Part shown: positions 3,607 to 49,274 of the stretch, one piece after another | Numbering within the stretch: position 1 is the first letter of the stretch | Layout of the letters: every line of letters begins with the position of its first letter | DNA from: an uncultured Eubacteriales bacterium | GTDB lineage: Bacteria > Bacillota > Clostridia > Christensenellales > CAG-138 | NCBI GenBank assembly: GCA_902765005.1 | Contig: CACWYB010000008.1 | Coordinates: 19,164-83,163, forward strand | Direction: 5' to 3' | Length of the DNA: 64,000 nucleotides | The notes under the pieces: generated by a model | Databases searched by the model: none | What the model saw: the letters and a program-made list of their open reading frames with translations, nothing else | What the model was told of the DNA's origin: nothing | Program-made: the position numbers and the translations under genes

Positions 3607-4593
3607 ATGAAAAAGTTTCTGGCGATTATCCTGGTTTTGATTCTGGCCGTTTCCGCGGTTGCCTGCTCCGGCGGCGGCGCGGCGAACACCGCTAAGAAAG
3701 CCTCCCTCACCATGGGCACCGGCGGTGAGTCCGGCACCTACTTCGCGGTGGGCGGCGTGCTCGCAAATGTGCTCAACGAGAAGAACCCCGACCTCATGAA
3801 CGTGAACGTGGTGTCCACCGGCGGCTCCGCTGACAACCTGCAGAACATGGCTGCCGGCGTCTACCAGCTGGCCACCGTTCAGTCCGACGTGATGACCTAC
3901 GCCTACAACGGCACCCGTTCCTTCGAGCAGACCGGCGCCGTGCCCAACGTGCGGATCCTGGCCGGCCTCTATGCCGAGACCGTGCAGATCGTGACCACCG
4001 ACCCCAACATCAAGACCGTGGCCGATCTGAAGGGCAAAGCCGTCTGCGTGGGCGACCAGAACTCCGGTACCTACTTCAACGCCAAGGATGTGTTCGATGC
4101 CTACGGCATGGACATTGAGAACGACATCAAGCCCATCTTCCAGTCCTTCGGCGCCTCCACCGAAAGCCTGAAGGACGGCAAGATCGACGCCGCCTTCCTG
4201 ACCGCCGGCGCACCCACCACCTCCGTTGTGGATCTGGGCACCGCCAAGACCGTGTACCTGGTCTCCATCGATGACGAGCACATGGGCAAGCTCCTGGAGG
4301 CCTGCCCCTTCTATGCCAAGTACATCATCGGCAAGGACGTGTACAAGACCCCCGAAGACTGCCAGACCGTGACCGTGAAGGCGACCTTGGTGGCTGACGC
4401 CGCCATCAGCGACGACGTGGCCTACGCCATCGTGAAGACCATCTTTGAGGGCAAGGACGAGATCACCGCGGCCCACGCCAAGGGCGCCGAGCTGGACCTC
4501 ACCTTCGCCACCGACGGCATGGCCATCCCCTTCCATCCCGGCGCTGCCAAGTACTTCGCCGAGAAGGGCATCACCGTGTCCACCGGCAAGTAA
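3607..4593 (+). CDS. TAXI-family TRAP transporter solute-binding lipoprotein
   Basis: The 328-aa protein has a lipoprotein signal peptide with the acylated Cys at residue 20 (AVAC), then a TAXI-type binding domain beginning SLTMGTGGESGTYFAVGGVLA. The glycine-rich GTGGESGTYFAVGG stretch and the later VCVGDQNSGTYFNAKDVFDAYG are typical of TAXI proteins, which bind small carboxylates or amino acids (glutamate in the best-known case) outside the membrane. The ligand is not predictable here. AAGGAG lies 7 nt before the ATG, and a SigA-like promoter precedes it. The permease follows after 116 bp. Codon use matches neighbouring core genes. The Firmicute protein is lipid-anchored, as expected for a cell without a periplasm. 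Confidence 0.92.
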   Translation: MKKFLAIILVLILAVSAVACSGGGAANTAKKASLTMGTGGESGTYFAVGGVLANVLNEKNPDLMNVNVVSTGGSADNLQNMAAGVYQLATVQSDVMTYAYNGTRSFEQTGAVPNVRILAGLYAETVQIVTTDPNIKTVADLKGKAVCVGDQNSGTYFNAKDVFDAYGMDIENDIKPIFQSFGASTESLKDGKIDAAFLTAGAPTTSVVDLGTAKTVYLVSIDDEHMGKLLEACPFYAKYIIGKDVYKTPEDCQTVTVKATLVADAAISDDVAYAIVKTIFEGKDEITAAHAKGAELDLTFATDGMAIPFHPGAAKYFAEKGITVSTGK

Positions 4594-4709: not shown

Positions 4710-6710
4710 ATGCCAATGAATAGGAAACGCAAAGCCGGCGTTACGGATATACCGGATAGGAAACCAACCCACGAGCGGGGCGAATTCGATGTGGTCTCCC
4801 AGGAAGAAGTAGACGAGATCATGAAGAACTATGACCCGGAAAGCAACGTTCGGGTCTGGTCCGGTTGGCAGGAATACCTGGTGAAGGGCATCCTGGCCGC
4901 CTTCTCCGTGTACACCATCTATGTAACTTTGTTTGCCACCCTTCTGGACCAGGTGCGCCTGCCCAGCTTTGTGGGCATGGGCATCCTGATGGGCTATCTA
5001 GTGTACCCTGCCAAGAAGGGCAAGCAGAAGATCAACCACATCCCCTGGTACGATTGGATCATCATGGTCCTGGGCACGGCCGCCTTCTTCTATTTCGCCT
5101 TCAACGCCGTGGCCATCATCAAGCAGGGCATCTACTTCGCCTGGTATGAATACGTCATCGGCGCCATCGGCATCCTGGCTCTTGCCGAGCTGTGCCGCCG
5201 CAGCGTGGGCATCCCCATTCTGTGCGTGGCCGGTTTCTTCATCGCCTACGCCCTCTACTTCTTCTCCCAGAAGCTGGGCTTCGTGGGCGCCGTGAAGACC
5301 ATGATCTACCGGCTCTTCTACACCACCACCGGCATCTTCACCACGCCCATCGACGTGTGCTCCAAGTATATCGCGGTGTTCATCATCTTCGGCGCGTTCC
5401 TGGAGCGGACGGGCATCTCCGACTTCTTCATTCAGCTGGCCAACTCCCTGGCGGGCTCCGCCAGCGGCGGCCCGGCCAAGGTGGCGGTCATCTCCTCCGC
5501 TCTGTGCGGCATGGTGTCCGGCTCCTCCGTGGGCAACACCGTGACCACCGGTTCCGTGACCATCCCCATGATGAAAAAGACCGGCTACCGGCCTGAGTTC
5601 GCCGGGGCCGTGGAAGCGGCGGCCTCCACCGGCGGCCAGATCATGCCCCCGGTCATGGGCGCGGCGGCGTTCTTGATGATCGACTACGTGGGCGTGCCCT
5701 ACTCCAGCATCATCGTCCGAGCCATCCTGCCCGCGGTGCTCTACTTCATGGGCATCTTCATCGCGGTCCATCTGGAAGCCAAGCGCACCGGCCTGAAGGG
5801 TATCCCCAAGGATCAGCTGCCCCAGTTCTCCAAGCTCATCAAGAAAGCCTATCTGCTGCTGCCCCTCATCATCCTGGTGGTGATGGTCTCCATGAATTTG
5901 AAGACCATGGCCTTCTCCGCGGCGACGGCCATCGTGGCCTGCATCGTGGTGAGCCTGTTCAACAAGGATAACCGGATCACCCCCATGAAGTTCTTCGACG
6001 CCCTCTCCAACGGCGGCAAGAGCTGCATCTCCATTATCGCGGCCTGCGGCATCGCCGGCTGCGTGGCGGGCTGCATCGCCATGACGGGCCTTGCGTCCCA
6101 GATCATCTCCTTCATCATCCGCATCGCCGGGGATAAGCTGATCATCGCCCTGTTCTTCACCATGATCTGCTGCATCGTGCTGGGCATGGGCGTGCCCACC
6201 ACCGCCAACTACTGCATCATGGCCTCCACCTGCGCTCCCATCCTCATCAAGATGGGCGTGCCCACCATCGCGGCCCACTTCTTCGTGTTCTACTTCGGCA
6301 TCGTGGCGGACATCACCCCGCCCGTGGCCCTGGCTGCCTACGCCGGCTCGGCCATCGCCAAGTCCGACCCCATGAAGACGGGCGTCAACGCCACAAGGCT
6401 GGCCATTGCGGCCTTCATCGTGCCCTACATCTTTGCCATGGACCCCACCATGATGTTCGTGGGCATCGGGCATTGGTATGAGGTGGTGCTCATCTGCATC
6501 ACGTCCGTCATGGGCATCTACGGCGTGGCCTCGGGTCTGGCGGGATTCACCTTCACTAACATGGCCTGGTATATGCGCATCCTGGCTGTTGTGGGCGGTC
6601 TGTTGCTGCTGGCCCCCTCCACCTGGACGGATATCGCCGGCCTGGTGATCGTGGGCGGCGTGATCGTTGTCCAGTATCTGCTGAGCAAGAAAGCGCCGGC
6701 TCAGGCCTGA
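4710..6710 (+). CDS. TRAP transporter fused permease (4TM/12TM, TAXI-associated)
   Basis: This 666-aa polytopic membrane protein fuses the small (DctQ-like, about 4 TM) and large (DctM-like, about 12 TM) TRAP permease subunits, as is usual for TAXI systems. Family motifs are clear: a Gly/Ser-rich SGSASGGPAKVAVISSALCGMVSGSSVGNTVTTGSVTIPMMKK region, EAAASTGGQIMPPVMGAAAFLM, and GMGVPTTANYCIMASTCAPIL with PPVALAAYAGSAIAKSDPMKTG. It uses an ion gradient (Na+ or H+) to import the ligand delivered by the lipoprotein encoded just upstream. The cytosolic N-terminus of about 50 residues is charged (EEVDEIMKNYDPESN). CGGAGG precedes the ATG by 8-9 nt. No other TRAP gene is near, so the two genes form a complete transporter. 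Confidence 0.93.
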   Translation: MPMNRKRKAGVTDIPDRKPTHERGEFDVVSQEEVDEIMKNYDPESNVRVWSGWQEYLVKGILAAFSVYTIYVTLFATLLDQVRLPSFVGMGILMGYLVYPAKKGKQKINHIPWYDWIIMVLGTAAFFYFAFNAVAIIKQGIYFAWYEYVIGAIGILALAELCRRSVGIPILCVAGFFIAYALYFFSQKLGFVGAVKTMIYRLFYTTTGIFTTPIDVCSKYIAVFIIFGAFLERTGISDFFIQLANSLAGSASGGPAKVAVISSALCGMVSGSSVGNTVTTGSVTIPMMKKTGYRPEFAGAVEAAASTGGQIMPPVMGAAAFLMIDYVGVPYSSIIVRAILPAVLYFMGIFIAVHLEAKRTGLKGIPKDQLPQFSKLIKKAYLLLPLIILVVMVSMNLKTMAFSAATAIVACIVVSLFNKDNRITPMKFFDALSNGGKSCISIIAACGIAGCVAGCIAMTGLASQIISFIIRIAGDKLIIALFFTMICCIVLGMGVPTTANYCIMASTCAPILIKMGVPTIAAHFFVFYFGIVADITPPVALAAYAGSAIAKSDPMKTGVNATRLAIAAFIVPYIFAMDPTMMFVGIGHWYEVVLICITSVMGIYGVASGLAGFTFTNMAWYMRILAVVGGLLLLAPSTWTDIAGLVIVGGVIVVQYLLSKKAPAQA

Positions 6711-22723: not shown

Positions 22724-24079
22724 TCAATAAAACATATTCCAATACACCGGCCCCCACATGTTGAGCAGCACGCACAGGAGGATCAGCGCCGTCTTCCATC
22801 CTCCCAGGGGCCGGCGCGTCAGGCCCATGGCCGCCAGTATGCCCACGTAGGGGATAAAGTCCATGGCGTACCGCATGCCGAACTGGGCGAACCCGTTCCC
22901 GTAATTCATGAGGAACGGCACCGCGCATACCGCCGCCGTCAGCAGCAGGAACCAAGTCAGCCTGTCCTTCCGATAGTCCACCCAGCCGGCGGCGTACAGC
23001 GCCGGGGAAAGGTGCGTCAGCGACACCCCCGCCAGCGTGGGGATCACATAGGGATAGGTCCGGGAGAACTCCGGCCCCAGCAAAAAGATGGAGTACAGGT
23101 TATACCCCACATGCTTCAGCTGCAGCGGACCGCCCACTTCCTTCTCCACCGCCTTCAAAAAGGCCAGCTGCTCCTCCTTGGGCAGAGCCTGCATCTGCAG
23201 ATACAGCGCCCGGTGCTTGTCCTTCAGGTGGGTCAGGTTATACCCTTGGTCCATGATCGTGCCGAACCGCACATAGTTATAGAGCATATACAGGCCCCCG
23301 GGCACCGCCGCGCCCAGGCAGAAGAAGAGAAGCGACCGCAGCCAGGCCTCCCGCTTATACCGGGTCAGGATATACCCGCCGAAGAACAGCGCCCCCAGCA
23401 GGTTCGGCATCCGGCAGGTCACCGCGCAGCCGTAGAACACCCCGGCCAGCAGCAGGTGGATGTCCTTACGCTTCTCTTCCGGCGCCGTCAAAAACGCCAT
23501 CCCCAGCAGCAGGAAGAACCAGCTGCTCACATGCCCCAAAAACCATCCGTGGCCCAGGGCCGCCAGGAAGCAGTGGACCGTGCCGAAGGTCAGCAGCGCC
23601 GCGCACCAGATCCGCTCCCGCCGATCCCGGCCGATGCCCATCTGCCGAAACACCCGGTAGCTGAGGGCCGTGTTCGCCCCGCCCAGCGCCAACGACAGCC
23701 AGGCGATGTTAAACCCGTTTATGCCGAACAGGGCCACGAACGGCAGGCACAGAATGGCCGGCCCCGGGGCAAAATGCATGTACACATGGCCGCCGAACTC
23801 CACCGATTCCAGATACGCCGGCATCCCGTCCACATACAGGTGCCCGTGGAGCAGGGCGTCCGCCAGGTAGCTATAGTTATTATAGTAGACAAAGTTGTGT
23901 TTGTTCAGCAGGAACAGCGCCAGGAAGCTCACCAAGAACAGCCCCAGCTCCACCGTTCCCTCCCGCCGGGGCCAGCCCTTCCTTTCGCGGCGCGCAAGGA
24001 CCCTGTCCAGCAGAAACAGCGCCAGCAGCACCAGGCCGATAGCCCCCATGGTGCCGAAGTAGCTGACCTTGCCCTCCAT
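22724..24079 (-). CDS. Polytopic membrane protein, GT-C glycosyltransferase-like
   Basis: The 451-aa protein has about 10-11 transmembrane helices. An outside loop after the second helix reads NNYSYLADALLHGHLYVDG. Such long first loops with acidic or polar residues, plus the layout ALLHGHLYVDGMPAYLESVEFGGHVYMHFAPGPAILCLP, recall GT-C mannosyl/arabinosyl-type transferases that use polyprenyl-phosphate sugars. I see no diagnostic D-x-D pair, so the enzymatic call is tentative. It stands alone, minus strand, with a weak AAGG 7 nt before the ATG. Upstream lies the long gene-free stretch with DnaA boxes. Surface glycan or lipid glycosylation would be the expected role if the family call is right. 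Confidence 0.6.
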   Translation of the reverse strand: MEGKVSYFGTMGAIGLVLLALFLLDRVLARRERKGWPRREGTVELGLFLVSFLALFLLNKHNFVYYNNYSYLADALLHGHLYVDGMPAYLESVEFGGHVYMHFAPGPAILCLPFVALFGINGFNIAWLSLALGGANTALSYRVFRQMGIGRDRRERIWCAALLTFGTVHCFLAALGHGWFLGHVSSWFFLLLGMAFLTAPEEKRKDIHLLLAGVFYGCAVTCRMPNLLGALFFGGYILTRYKREAWLRSLLFFCLGAAVPGGLYMLYNYVRFGTIMDQGYNLTHLKDKHRALYLQMQALPKEEQLAFLKAVEKEVGGPLQLKHVGYNLYSIFLLGPEFSRTYPYVIPTLAGVSLTHLSPALYAAGWVDYRKDRLTWFLLLTAAVCAVPFLMNYGNGFAQFGMRYAMDFIPYVGILAAMGLTRRPLGGWKTALILLCVLLNMWGPVYWNMFY

Positions 24080-24099
24080 TTTGCGCCTTGCCCCCTTTC

Positions 24100-24111
24100 A
24101 TCCTGCAGGAT
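24100..24111. repeat. 12-bp palindrome, first copy
   Basis: ATCCTGCAGGAT, a perfect palindrome, also present at 24406-24417. The two copies bracket the DnaA-box cluster. This copy lies about 20 bp upstream of the GT-C-like gene start. Confidence 0.5.
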
Positions 24112-24227
24112 CGATCCTTTTGGACATTGTACCCCAAGCCCCGCCCCCTGTCAACGCGCCCGGAGCCACCCTTCGTCAAAAAGCCCCGATTTTCGGAATT
24201 TCTCCTCAAACCAACCCTTTTGCCCCT

Positions 24228-24315
24228 TTATCCACACCCTGAGCCGGAAAATTATCCACATTATCCACAGCCTTATCCACCGAAGACGGATTTCCGTTCT
24301 TTTTTCTGTGGATAA
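24228..24315. other. Cluster of five DnaA boxes
   Basis: Four perfect copies of TTATCCACA occur at 24228-24236, 24252-24260, 24261-24269 (directly abutting the previous one) and, inverted, at 24307-24315. A fifth, TTATCCACC, lies at 24273-24281. Five boxes in 88 bp of non-coding DNA is far above chance. This set is closer to consensus than the boxes at the dnaA-dnaN origin. No AT-rich unwinding stretch or TAG-triplet array is next to it, so a DnaA-titrating or regulatory cluster is more likely than a second origin. Confidence 0.8.
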
Positions 24316-24331
24316 CGCCGTGGAAAAGGCA

Positions 24332-24388
24332 CGCGAAAGGCTGCCGTCGGTCCCATGGGCGTAGGACCGTCCCGGCAGCCGTTTCGCG
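24332..24388. other. 57-nt long hairpin beside the DnaA-box cluster
   Basis: Nested arms CGCGAAA/TTTCGCG, GGCTGCCG/CGGCAGCC and CGGTCC/GGACCG give about 21 bp of pairing with a 10-nt apical loop. It has no U-tract on either side, so it does not look like a standard terminator. Confidence 0.6.
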
Positions 24389-24405
24389 GATCATGAGGGC
24401 GGGGC

Positions 24406-24417
24406 ATCCTGCAGGAT
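24406..24417. repeat. 12-bp palindrome, second copy
   Basis: ATCCTGCAGGAT, identical to 24100-24111. Confidence 0.5.
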
Positions 24418-24456
24418 GGGGGGAGCCGTCCTGCAAGCTTGGCATTTGGTTCTGTT

Positions 24457-24489
24457 GTTCCTTTTCTCTTCCGTGAAGAGAAAAGGAAC
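24457..24489 (-). repeat. Partial composite element, copy D (hairpin iii only)
   Basis: Perfect 15-bp arms GTTCCTTTTCTCTTC with loop CGT, followed by CGAAAAGAGAAGCTCAGGAAG, the decayed start of hairpin ii in reverse orientation. The remainder of the element is missing. Confidence 0.75.
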
Positions 24490-24499
24490 CGAAAAGAGA

Positions 24500-24713
24500 A
24501 GCTCAGGAAGATAATATGATATCCATGATTCCATCTATCTTCCATTCAAAGGACAAATTGGTCATTATATCACCCCATTTATATGAGATTCTCGGACCCA
24601 ATAAATCCTGAAAGTTAGTCGGCTTACGCCAAAAAGTTAGTAGGTTTAGAACGCCGTTTCCAGTGATACTTTCATTGTGTTCATAGGCTCAGCCCTTTCA
24701 AAAAACCCAGACT
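24500..24713. other. AT-richer non-coding stretch downstream of spo0A
   Basis: Base composition falls well below the flanks. A 28-codon open frame at 24525-24611 has no ribosome-binding site and is not called a gene. A direct repeat AAAGTTAGT occurs near 24611 and 24634. It may be debris of a mobile element, but no transposase is recognisable. Confidence 0.4.
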
Positions 24714-25493
24714 TCATCCCGCCTTTTTCCCCTGCTCCTCCATCAAGAGCTTGTCCGCCACCAGGGCGATGAACTCTCCGTTGGTGGGCTTGTCATTCTT
24801 GCCGTAGATGTTGTAGCCGAATAGGGCGTTCAGGTTTTCGATCTTGCCCCGGGTCCAGGCCACCTCGATGGCGTGGCGGATGGCCCGCTCCACTTTGCTG
24901 GGGGAGGTGTCGAACCGCTTGGCGATGCCCGGGTACAGCTCTTTGGTGATCCGGTTGATGAGATCCGGGTCGTTGTACACCAGTCGGATGCCCTCCCTGA
25001 GGTAGTGATAGCCCTTGATGTGGGCCGGGATGCCCGCCACCAGGAAGATGGCGGTCACCTTCTCCTCAAAGGACCGGTGGGTGGGGGCGTAGGGCATGAC
25101 GCCCCCCTTCACCGGCTCTCCTTCCAGCGTCTCCAGCAGGCGTTTGCTGATCGTGTCCGCGTCCACAGGCTTCACCATATAATATCGGGCCCCCAGCGCG
25201 CAGCACCGGCGCACCATGGCCTCGTTCTTTAATGCGGAAATCACCACCACAGCCGGCGCCGGGTTCAGCGGCAGCACCGACATCTGCTCCAGCACCGCCA
25301 GCCCGTCCGCGTTGGGCATGATGAGGTCCAGCGTCATCACGTCATAGGTCTTCTCCCTGAGCTTCTTCAGCGCCTCCCGGCCGTCCTGGGCGGTGTCCAC
25401 CTCGCTGAACCGGTCCTGGCTCAGCAGATACCCCTTCACGCTCTCGGTGAACTGGGTGTTGTCGTCGATCAAAAGAGCTTTGTACTTTGCCAT
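24714..25493 (-). CDS. spo0A: Stage 0 sporulation protein A, response regulator
   Basis: The 259-aa master regulator of sporulation entry. The N-terminal receiver domain has the acidic pocket LLIDDN (Asp10, Asp11), phospho-acceptor Asp56 in MTLDLIMPN, and the conserved Lys in MVKPVDAD. After a linker the Spo0A-specific DNA-binding domain runs from EEKVTAIFLVAGIPAHIKGYHYLR to GYNIYGKNDKPTNGEF. It includes the helix-turn-helix SKVERAIRHAIEVAWTRG, which contacts the TGNCGAA box. Start 25493 is supported by AAGGAGGAAGG just upstream and agrees with the family N-terminus; a start at 25556 would add 21 unconserved residues. A -10-like TACAAT and a consensus 0A box lie upstream. Its presence marks an endospore-forming lineage, though actual sporulation cannot be shown here. 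Confidence 0.97.
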   Translation of the reverse strand: MAKYKALLIDDNTQFTESVKGYLLSQDRFSEVDTAQDGREALKKLREKTYDVMTLDLIMPNADGLAVLEQMSVLPLNPAPAVVVISALKNEAMVRRCCALGARYYMVKPVDADTISKRLLETLEGEPVKGGVMPYAPTHRSFEEKVTAIFLVAGIPAHIKGYHYLREGIRLVYNDPDLINRITKELYPGIAKRFDTSPSKVERAIRHAIEVAWTRGKIENLNALFGYNIYGKNDKPTNGEFIALVADKLLMEEQGKKAG

Positions 25494-25519
25494 TTGCCTT
25501 CCTCCTTCGCTGTGCTTAG

Positions 25520-25525
25520 ATTGTA
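25520..25525 (-). promoter_or_regulatory. -10-like element upstream of spo0A
   Basis: TACAAT on the minus strand (25525-25520), about 27 bp before the start codon. No good -35 is present at 16-18 bp, so it may need an activator. Confidence 0.45.
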
Positions 25526-25569
25526 CCATCCCCCTCCCCAACTGGTTAGAGTGCAAATTCAGCGACCCC

Positions 25570-25576
25570 TGGCGAA
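25570..25576 (+). promoter_or_regulatory. Putative 0A box upstream of spo0A
   Basis: TGGCGAA matches the Spo0A-binding consensus TGNCGAA. A one-mismatch copy TAGCGAA follows at 25581-25587. The pair sits about 45-60 bp upstream of the -10-like element, where an activator could bind. Confidence 0.4.
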
Positions 25577-25638
25577 TGGATAGCGAATAAAGGAAGGTGG
25601 CGGCATAGGAGGTTATTTAGGGGCATAGCTTTTCTTTT

Positions 25639-25674
25639 GTTCCTTTTTCTCTTCTGTGAAGAGGAAAAAGGAAC
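25639..25674 (-). repeat. Partial composite element, copy E (hairpin iii only)
   Basis: GTTCCTTTTTCTCTTC pairs with GAAGAGGAAAAAGGAAC around TGT with a single-base bulge. CGAAAAAGAGAAGC follows. Rest missing. Confidence 0.7.
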
Positions 25675-25745
25675 CGAAAAAGAGAAGCGCATAGGGGGGC
25701 TGTATATCGGCAGGCATGACCTTCTTCCCCCACGCCGGGCCCTCC

Positions 25746-25828
25746 GTAGGGGAGGGCTTGCCCCTCCCGCCTTACATCACAAAAACACATCCTTGACGCT
25801 ATGGGCCGGGCAAAGCCACGGCCCCTAC
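25746..25828. repeat. 83-bp REPIN-like element with inverted ends
   Basis: The ends are GTAGGGG (25746-25752) and CCCCTAC (25822-25828). Each end forms its own small hairpin: GGGAGGG/CCCTCCC at 25750-25768 and GGGCCG/CGGCCC at 25803-25824. This is the layout of two palindromic REP units in head-to-head orientation. Only one copy is in the window. Confidence 0.6.
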
Positions 25829-47873: not shown

Positions 47874-47880
47874 TTTTTCC

Positions 47881-48110
47881 ATCCACATCCGTGGATAGAC
47901 CGTGGATAACCTGCGTGGAAACTTTGGACGGCGGGGATAGCGTGCATATCCCCGCTCACTTTTCCACCCCCTTCCCACCCCCTTTTCCACATCTCTTTTC
48001 TCGCGATGCAGGCCCTTTTTCTCCCTTTCCCACACCTCCCACAGCCCCTACTAAAACTACTTCTATAAAATTAATAATTCCCTCCTCCCAATTATCAACT
48101 TCTTGTAAAA
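47881..48110. other. oriC: oriC: DnaA boxes, DnaA-trio-like array and AT-rich unwinding region
   Basis: The 303-bp dnaA-dnaN gap holds degenerate DnaA boxes: CGTGGATAG 47890-47898, CGTGGATAA 47901-47909, TTTTCCACC 47960-47968, TTTTCCACA 47983-47991, and TTTCCCACA 48026-48034. A GC stretch follows, then a triplet array at 48048-48065 that reads TAG AAG TAG TTT TAG TAG on the minus strand. Last comes the AT-rich ATAAAATTAATAATT. The order box, GC stretch, triplets, AT-rich region, and the strand polarity, match the basal unwinding system known from Bacillus. Confidence 0.75.
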
Positions 48111-48176
48111 TCATGATAAAAGGGATTGAGAAACGCCCTGAACCGTGGTATTCTGGCTAAAAGTGAGGTAAATACT

Positions 48177-49274
48177 ATGAGATTTTGTGTGGATTCCAAA
48201 AATTTGCTGGACGGCGTACTTTCCGTCACCAAGGCCCTTCCCGTTCGCTCCTCCATGCCGGTATTGGAAGGCATCCATCTGGTGGTGAACGAAGAGGGCG
48301 TTTTGATGCGCTGCTCCGATTTGACGCTGCAGAAGGAGTATCGGCTGCCCGCCACCGTGGAGGATGAGGGCGAATGCGTCATCCGCGGCCGCATCTTCTC
48401 CGACATCGTGCGCAAGCTTCCCGCGGAGAACGCCTTTTTCTCCATGGACGGTCAAACGCTCACCATCCGCTGCGGCCGCACGGTGAATCAGCTCCAGTGC
48501 ATGGAATATGACGAATATCCCCGCATGAACTTTGACGGGGAGGATCAGTTCACCATCAGCTTCGACAGGGAAAAGGCGAAGAAGACCATTGAGCACACTG
48601 CCTTTGCCGTGGCCCAGGACGACAGCCGTCCGGTGCTGGCCGGCGTGCTGCTGGAGAGTGAGGGAAAAACCCTGTCCCTGGTGGCCACCGATTCCTATCA
48701 GTTCGCCAAAAACACCCTGTCCATCCAGGAGGAGGCGCCCCAGAAGCGGGTGGTCCTGCCCGGCAAGACCATCAATGAGATCGGCCGCATGATGGAGGAG
48801 GGCGAAGGCAAGGCCTCCCTCACCTTCTCCCGCACCCATATGAAGGCGGACATGGGCAGCACCATTCTCATCTCCCGCCTCATCGACAGCGATTACATCG
48901 ACTATAAGCGCATCCTCCCCAAGTCCTGCAAGACCCGGGTCCTGGTGGATAAGGACGCCCTCATGGAGAGCGTGGACAGGGCTCAGCTGGTTTCCCGGGA
49001 GGGGAACAACAGCGTTCTCTTGCGGATCGGCACGGACAGCATGATCGTCAAGGCCGAGAGCATCATCGGCAAGGTGGAGGAGGAGCTTTCCGTTCAGATC
49101 ATGGGCGACGGGCTGGATATCGCCTTCAACCCCCGGTTCATCCTCAACGTTCTCAAGAACATCGATGAGGACAAGGTATACCTGGAGTGCAACAGCTCCA
49201 TCAACCCCTGCGTGATCCGGCCGGTGAACAGCGAGGAATACTTCTATCTGATCGTTCCCATGAGAATTTTCTAA
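48177..49274 (+). CDS. dnaN: DNA polymerase III beta subunit (sliding clamp)
   Basis: The 365-aa clamp protein has the three-domain beta fold: MRFCVDSKNLLDGVLSVTKALPVRSSMPVLEGIHL, then HTAFAVAQDDSRPVLAGVLLESEGKTLSLVATDSYQFAKNTL, and the C-terminal ending CVIRPVNSEEYFYLIVPMRIF (typical ...P.R). The start at 48177 agrees with the family and has GAGG about 10 nt upstream; an in-frame ATG at 48126 would add 17 residues encoded inside the origin region. The stop is 3 bp from the next ATG, so the following unusual gene is co-transcribed with the clamp. Confidence 0.98.
   Translation: MRFCVDSKNLLDGVLSVTKALPVRSSMPVLEGIHLVVNEEGVLMRCSDLTLQKEYRLPATVEDEGECVIRGRIFSDIVRKLPAENAFFSMDGQTLTIRCGRTVNQLQCMEYDEYPRMNFDGEDQFTISFDREKAKKTIEHTAFAVAQDDSRPVLAGVLLESEGKTLSLVATDSYQFAKNTLSIQEEAPQKRVVLPGKTINEIGRMMEEGEGKASLTFSRTHMKADMGSTILISRLIDSDYIDYKRILPKSCKTRVLVDKDALMESVDRAQLVSREGNNSVLLRIGTDSMIVKAESIIGKVEEELSVQIMGDGLDIAFNPRFILNVLKNIDEDKVYLECNSSINPCVIRPVNSEEYFYLIVPMRIF

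Follow-up and report, generated by a model that had tools for sequence, protein, structure and literature searches.

The window, the whole 64-kb stretch of DNA analysed here, carries a compact array of DnaA boxes between spo0A and a membrane glycosyltransferase-like gene, with dnaA and dnaN further along (Table 1). An earlier note, made from the sequence alone, had pointed out four perfect boxes and one near-perfect box in 88 bp with these neighbours, and both the boxes, at positions 24228-24315, and the flanking genes proved to be as described. All perfect copies of TTATCCACA in the 64-kb window (n=4) fall within this interval. Chance would place 0.19 perfect boxes in the window, and four or more occurred in 0 of 100 shuffles. 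Counting boxes with at most one mismatch per 88 bp, the array holds five, against a maximum of two in 60 simulated windows of 64 kb whose composition was matched to the local make-up. On the shuffles and the simulated windows, chance was rejected as the source of the cluster.

Table 1. Features of the DnaA-box array and its surroundings, in window coordinates.
Feature	Position	Strand	Score or basis
Membrane glycosyltransferase-like gene, downstream of array	22724..24079	-	NF047440 61.1 bits; curated cut-off 200
Promoter-like TTGACA-17-TACAAT of glycosyltransferase-like gene, in array-gene gap	24126..24154	-	by eye
DnaA-box array (match of model R1, same orientation as spo0A)	24227..24317	-	68.8 bits
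Fourth tandem box, perfect TTATCCACA, 24-bp step	24228..24236	+	
Third tandem box, perfect TTATCCACA, 9-bp step	24252..24260	+	
Second tandem box, perfect TTATCCACA, 12-bp step	24261..24269	+	
First tandem box TTATCCACC, near-perfect	24273..24281	+	
Opposing box, perfect TTATCCACA, closest to spo0A	24307..24315	-	
Second opposing box, degenerate TTTTCCACG, at 12 bp from first opposing box	24319..24327	-	scored
spo0A, second (divergent) Spo0A lineage	24714..25493	-	TIGR02875 270.5 bits; tree
dnaA	46494-47873	+	
oriC (dnaA-dnaN gap), weaker DnaA boxes, outside array	47874..48125	+	
DnaA-trio-like stretch CCTACTAAAACTACTTCTAT in dnaA-dnaN gap	~48048-48068		
dnaN	48126-49274	+	

Read in the direction of spo0A, the array starts with one right-pointing box, followed 34-37 bp on by three left-pointing boxes, usually with more behind them. 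The left-pointing boxes are spaced by 12 and then 9 bp, and a fit with free steps returned 12 bp in 56 of 60 arrays and 9 bp in 54 of 60. Opposing boxes were counted with the 12/9 triplet held fixed in 56 of the 60 arrays (G008, G007, L219 and L314 were left out). In these 56 arrays, 46 opposing boxes lie at 34-37 bp, 11 at 46-49 bp and four at 53-60 bp, with none at 9-33 or 38-45 bp; an opposing box at 34-37 or 46-49 bp is present in 51 of them. The two main spacing classes are 12 bp apart, as with two tandem opposing boxes. Helical phasing, by which 34-37 and 46-49 bp would differ by one turn, was considered as a cause of the two classes, but a tandem pair of opposing boxes at a distance of 12 bp, with one member lost in some genera, fits at least equally well, and no phasing is therefore claimed. 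An alignment of 14 arrays contains 20 invariant columns, all 20 of which lie within boxes.

Two perfect boxes at a fixed 33-bp unit occur in 10 of the 12 genomes of the window's genus, the exact pair pattern being absent from G003 and G011; the pair scan covered 61 genomes and recorded two perfect boxes at most 30 bp apart. Flanks of spo0A in several genera carry a matching array layout. From the 14 aligned arrays we built a sequence-only model, R1, whose rows, the window's copy among them, come from the family and G037 and match by construction, while the arrays of f30, f67, f75 and f86 were not included. Within the window, R1 returned one match besides the array itself, at 23.7 bits and overlapping it. 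Across the family, R1 matched at E <= 0.01 in 100 of 103 genomes and reached at least 25.5 bits in at least 93; scores of at least 30 bits were found in at least 82 of the 103, as against a maximum of 25.5 bits at 31 dnaA/oriC loci scanned as controls with 1.5 kb of flank. In the window's genus the array scores at least 64 bits in 12 of 12 genomes, seven of which are model rows. A partial match of 28.3 bits lies 2.4 kb from dnaA in G036. Beyond the family, the array was found in the isolate Caldicoprobacter algeriensis and in Christensenella sp. UBA6094, and a class-wide draw of 391 genomes contained 67 with an R1 match at E <= 1e-6. Besides the window's genome, 50 of the other 66 have matches away from spo0A, many of these being partial matches that may represent other groups of boxes. 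The earlier note had proposed looking for the cluster in relatives with conserved flanks, and there the array is kept. Because the same layout recurs in distantly related bacteria, the array is, on this comparison of sequences, probably a working control element.

From the positions of dnaA and dnaN, the distance between the cluster and the dnaA-dnaN gap is ~23.6 kb, in agreement with the ~23 kb to oriC first given; the cumulative GC skew has its minimum at ~50-56 kb of the window. The gap holds one perfect TTWTNCACA and several boxes with one or two mismatches, and perfect TTATCCACA is absent from it, so that the assertion that the cluster's boxes are better than those at oriC itself holds. 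A role of the cluster as the true origin, already thought less likely from the sequence, was rejected because the trio-like stretch sits between dnaA and dnaN; by eye, neither a trio nor an AT-rich unwinding stretch was seen beside the array. In the accessible part of PMC7561715, unwinding of clostridial origins takes place in the dnaA-dnaN gap, beside the trio, and the origin is bipartite, with oriC1 upstream of dnaA and oriC2 between dnaA and dnaN. The array resembles such bipartite origins as a DnaA-box cluster, theirs having a role in replication initiation; it differs from them in that no trio-like stretch was seen next to it and in its distance from dnaA, which ranges from 1.5 kb to tens of kilobases.

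To place the array relative to the origin more widely, we located dnaA in 95 of the 103 family genomes, and both array and dnaA in 88. The two share a contig in 20 of these 88, at distances, worked out by hand, of 1.5-75.5 kb with a median of 11.5 kb (the weakest matches, below 31 bits, are those of G028 and G091), where random placement predicts about three shared contigs, or six with a doubled contig share, as estimated from rounded contig counts and a crude share. In the other 68 the distance is not measurable because array and dnaA are on separate contigs. Nine of the 20 do not have that spo0A beside the array, which in these lies 2.7-12.8 kb from dnaA; spo0A is not above the cut-off in G021, G118, G119, G122 and G091 and is elsewhere in G085, G105, G015 and G028. 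In G015, the array is found between recF-like and dnaN-like genes. At locus L331 of G101, spo0A, array, dnaN and dnaA follow directly on one another, with the array next to dnaN and 1.5 kb from dnaA. In G037, outside the family, the array is ~376 kb from dnaA and still with spo0A.

On the side away from spo0A, the neighbouring gene varies among genera while the array stays. In the Caldicoprobacter-like genome G249, read by eye, a KsgA-family rRNA adenine dimethylase gene is followed by an unassigned protein, the spo0A paralog, two genes and the array, and after it come genes for a zinc-ribbon protein, VEG and SipL (Pfam) and an IspE-like gene. A SipL-family gene adjoins the array in G030, G061, G078 and G032, where spo0A is not beside it, and in genus g11 (G021) the array is near an EPSP-synthase-family (MurA-like) gene. 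The promoter-like element of the window's glycosyltransferase-like gene lies outside the array, and the same motif was seen by eye in genus members. Regulation of the far-side gene was downgraded as a main role, since that gene changes from genus to genus; a constant regulated gene adjoining the boxes, as expected of a DnaA-regulated promoter element, was not found on this side. The constant neighbour of the array in most genomes, if not all, is spo0A.

The reading we favour, at a probability of roughly 0.58, is that the cluster is an old, origin-proximal DnaA-binding control site that would titrate DnaA in the manner of the B. subtilis DnaA-box clusters. It would form a platform of two converging arms, in which one or two right-pointing boxes face three or more left-pointing boxes set at steps of 12, 9 and ~23 bp. 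DnaA may assemble head-to-tail on the tandem arm, facing DnaA on the opposing box. Located near oriC, the array would be doubled soon after each initiation, and the doubled array could then sequester free DnaA and postpone the following initiation. The observations on its side are the confinement of invariant columns to boxes in the 14 rows, the recurrent 12- and 9-bp steps, the gap in R1 scores between family arrays and dnaA/oriC loci, the lack of R1 matches at canonical spo0A loci, the persistence of the array when its neighbours change, an oriC that is separate from it, and its nearness to dnaA where measurable, with many more shared contigs than the three to six expected, including the nine in which spo0A does not adjoin. 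We infer from this binding by DnaA, titration and any effect on timing. Against it stands the distance in G037, as do the 10 of 103 family genomes that, among the matches listed, have none of at least 25.5 bits. Titration by itself would also not predict so tight a linkage to a spo0A paralog.

In the available text of PMC5295017 and PMC13220808, the six B. subtilis DnaA-box clusters, whose joint removal leads to early initiation, are usually explained by titration; clusters outside oriC are attributed there and in PMC4447404 to Okumura et al. 2012. They are like the array in having several high-affinity boxes outside oriC, in a Gram-positive spore-former lineage, with a proposed retention of free DnaA. 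As in that type of cluster, several consensus boxes stand close together here, outside the dnaA-dnaN and dnaA-upstream origin, and their location is origin-proximal both in the window and in the 20 genomes with a measured distance, G037 being the exception. The strong B. subtilis DnaA-binding regions in the accessible portion of PMC4447404 lie near oriC genes, ywcI/vpr, gcp/ydiF, trmE/jag, ywlC, yqeG/sda and yydA, and differ from the array in that none of them is at spo0A. A fixed converging geometry over deep phylogeny is likewise not described in these portions of the literature, the comparison being by description only. The proposal that the cluster is of the titrating kind outside oriC fits best and accords with its retention in relatives; datA, named alongside, is the more distant of the E. 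coli comparisons in box order, as discussed below.

The control of initiation is less clear in Bacillota than in E. coli, and a 2026 review (PMC13220808), in the part available, considers it an unanswered question whether regulators of the DnaA ATP/ADP balance exist in B. subtilis. The array offers a defined piece of DNA for tests, with a near-fixed geometry common to Caldicoprobacter, a Christensenella MAG and uncultured gut Clostridia. Because it marks both a second Spo0A lineage and a family mostly without perfect boxes upstream of dnaA, titration, origin evolution and a link to sporulation can be addressed on one element.

The association with spo0A was examined at several depths. In a tree of 57 Spo0A proteins, rooted at the midpoint, 12 rows, including all 11 labelled canonical, separate from the other 45 (100/100), and this group of 45 contains every array-linked copy together with the window's Spo0A. 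Among the matches listed, the best array match lies within 5 kb downstream of spo0A in 59 of 83 spo0A-bearing family genomes (79 above the cut-off and four below it, namely three fragments in the window's genus and G027), in the same orientation in 59 of 59 and at 102-434 bp in 51. The array is elsewhere in 20 of the 83 and has no match among those listed in four. Of the displaced arrays, that of G019 is 16 kb downstream of spo0A on the same strand, that of G085 is on the spo0A contig but on the other strand, and the remaining 18 are on contigs other than that of spo0A. At least 14 of the 20 family genomes without spo0A above the cut-off also carry the array; in seven of these 20, which all belong to genus g11, a weaker Spo0A-like match (~160 bits) lies elsewhere. 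For 80 named loci closest to the window's Spo0A, some of which stop shortly past spo0A and several of which are also counted within the family, the array is downstream on the same strand in 27, those of Caldicoprobacter algeriensis and Christensenella sp. UBA6094 among them. Class-wide, it lies within 5 kb downstream of spo0A in 16 of the 66 other genomes, from five families and all on the same strand. A full-length, higher-scoring spo0A is present elsewhere in 14 of these 16, the array being with the lower-scoring copy; G296 has two partial spo0A matches elsewhere, and in G409 the array-linked copy stands alone at the threshold used. When 10 genomes with both loci were compared, R1 matched the paralog locus and never the canonical one, and no R1 match was present at 11 canonical spo0A loci scanned over 1.5-2.2 kb of downstream flank. 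The array goes with the second, divergent spo0A paralog through deep phylogeny, not with the canonical copy, and the link is strong yet not obligatory.

This pattern could suggest that the array lets DnaA switch the neighbouring spo0A paralog (or sipL) and so ties sporulation to replication status, a reading we regard as unlikely though worth keeping in view. DnaA bound 3' of spo0A would alter spo0A expression through looping, a road-block or effects at the 3' end, and would thereby directly perform the role of DnaA and Sda in B. subtilis, where, in the sources as far as accessible, DnaA boxes lie upstream of sda and DnaA activates sda. The array would share with those promoter boxes a link between replication and sporulation, but it sits 3' of a spo0A paralog rather than upstream of sda. 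The frequency and uniform orientation of the linkage in the family and class-wide, the preference for the paralog, and G037, where the array adjoins spo0A despite the distant dnaA, all argue for such a switch. However, shared ancestry alone can explain both linkage and orientation, and two genes separate spo0A from the array in Caldicoprobacter-like genomes. An obligatory function for spo0A was downgraded because arrays occur near dnaA without spo0A adjoining, as in the nine genomes above, or beside a SipL-family gene. These exceptions make the link to sporulation weaker than the earlier note had it, although the array does track spo0A over deep phylogeny. No report of DnaA boxes at spo0A was found in the accessible text of the openly licensed literature, including PMC5742627, PMC8682772 and PMC12112137.

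The region upstream of dnaA raises another alternative. In 25 of 28 family genomes, the 600 bp before the DnaA match contain no perfect TTWTNCACA (the exceptions are G030, G033 and G036), and G037 has none in the 600 bp upstream of dnaA either. Apart from G037, eight of nine other genomes of the order have one to six perfect upstream boxes, and all 10 outgroup genomes that carry the array have between four and six. The family has thus kept the array yet mostly lost perfect boxes upstream of dnaA, a loss that may be a single event, in a sample that is small in part. The array might accordingly be a detached origin half that replaced the former upstream boxes in the family and would aid initiation at the dnaA-dnaN unwinding site via DNA looping. 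We consider this quite improbable, even with the contrast in upstream boxes and the nearness of the array to dnaA wherever measurable on its side. Since the outgroups carry upstream boxes and array together, the array is not simply a moved origin half; distances of 20-76 kb, and ~376 kb in G037, are long for looping; and the contrast does not count as independent evidence, since a single event may account for the box loss.

Another comparison is with the E. coli sites DARS1, DARS2 and datA. In the DARS1 and DARS2 cores, we measured one box opposing two others, with steps of 14 and 12 bp. The array is like them in having one box that opposes tandem boxes, as box I opposes II and III, and in the 12-bp step between the first two tandem boxes. 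The spacing is otherwise unlike: the opposing box is 34-37 (or 46-49) bp away as against 14 bp, a step at which, as throughout 9-33 bp, the arrays have none, and an extra tandem box follows 9 bp on. The essential datA boxes, in the parts of the literature available, all point in one direction and need IHF. The array shares with datA a position outside oriC and has a same-direction tandem arm, but it also has an opposing box, which places its box order nearer to DARS than to datA, the counterpart first suggested. The annotated E. coli oriC has a mixed box order. A DARS- or datA-like action, in which the array would alter the nucleotide state of DnaA rather than simply hold it, is nonetheless very unlikely: R1 finds no match in the DARS1, DARS2 or datA regions, and PMC13220808, in the portion accessible, reports B. 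subtilis to be without IHF, datA and DARS. As a long shot, the array could be a DARS-kind site in Bacillota that replaced the control exerted by the lost dnaA-upstream boxes and reads both replication and sporulation beside the second Spo0A; if so, converging DnaA arms would shift the DnaA nucleotide state near the origin. No DARS-kind site in Bacillota is described in the accessible parts of the literature covered. Finally, chance or drift without function, to which the family genomes lacking a match of at least 25.5 bits might point, is extremely improbable, as box numbers in the window far exceed chance and the box geometry is kept although the DNA between boxes varies.

Several further features were seen around these loci. 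A further DnaA-box group occurs in the window's own genome at L032 1480-1543 (G000:C3 near 153354), where it falls within a MutS-like coding sequence, at its 3' end, and is translated as VDN repeats. The gap between spo0A and the array contains a candidate structured RNA (window 24329-24438, minus strand) whose two hairpins surround an invariant TGCCCC and a conserved CCTCATRATCCG linker. Of the 29 pairs that RNAalifold predicts, nine have a kept two-sided change, and a model of the candidate matches downstream of spo0A in further family loci; L195 carries it twice, at 4011-4119 and 6431-6539, ~2.4 kb apart with an ORF in between. At the gathering score, Rfam found tRNA only in the 64-kb window, leaving the candidate without a family, and a known RNA family in the spo0A-array gap was discarded after a permissive Rfam scan of 23900-25800 returned only weak, implausible matches. 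In G003 and G019 (L065 and L079), an integrase-like ORF directly follows spo0A, and the window has a short similar ORF start, MTNLSFEWKIDG, at ~24520-24585 on the minus strand; the interval from spo0A to the array may be a hot spot for insertion. On either side of spo0A, at 24442-24502 and 25626-25694, lie hairpins of the form TTCCTTTT-CTCTTC...GAAGAG-AAAAGGAA, which are perhaps repeated terminators.
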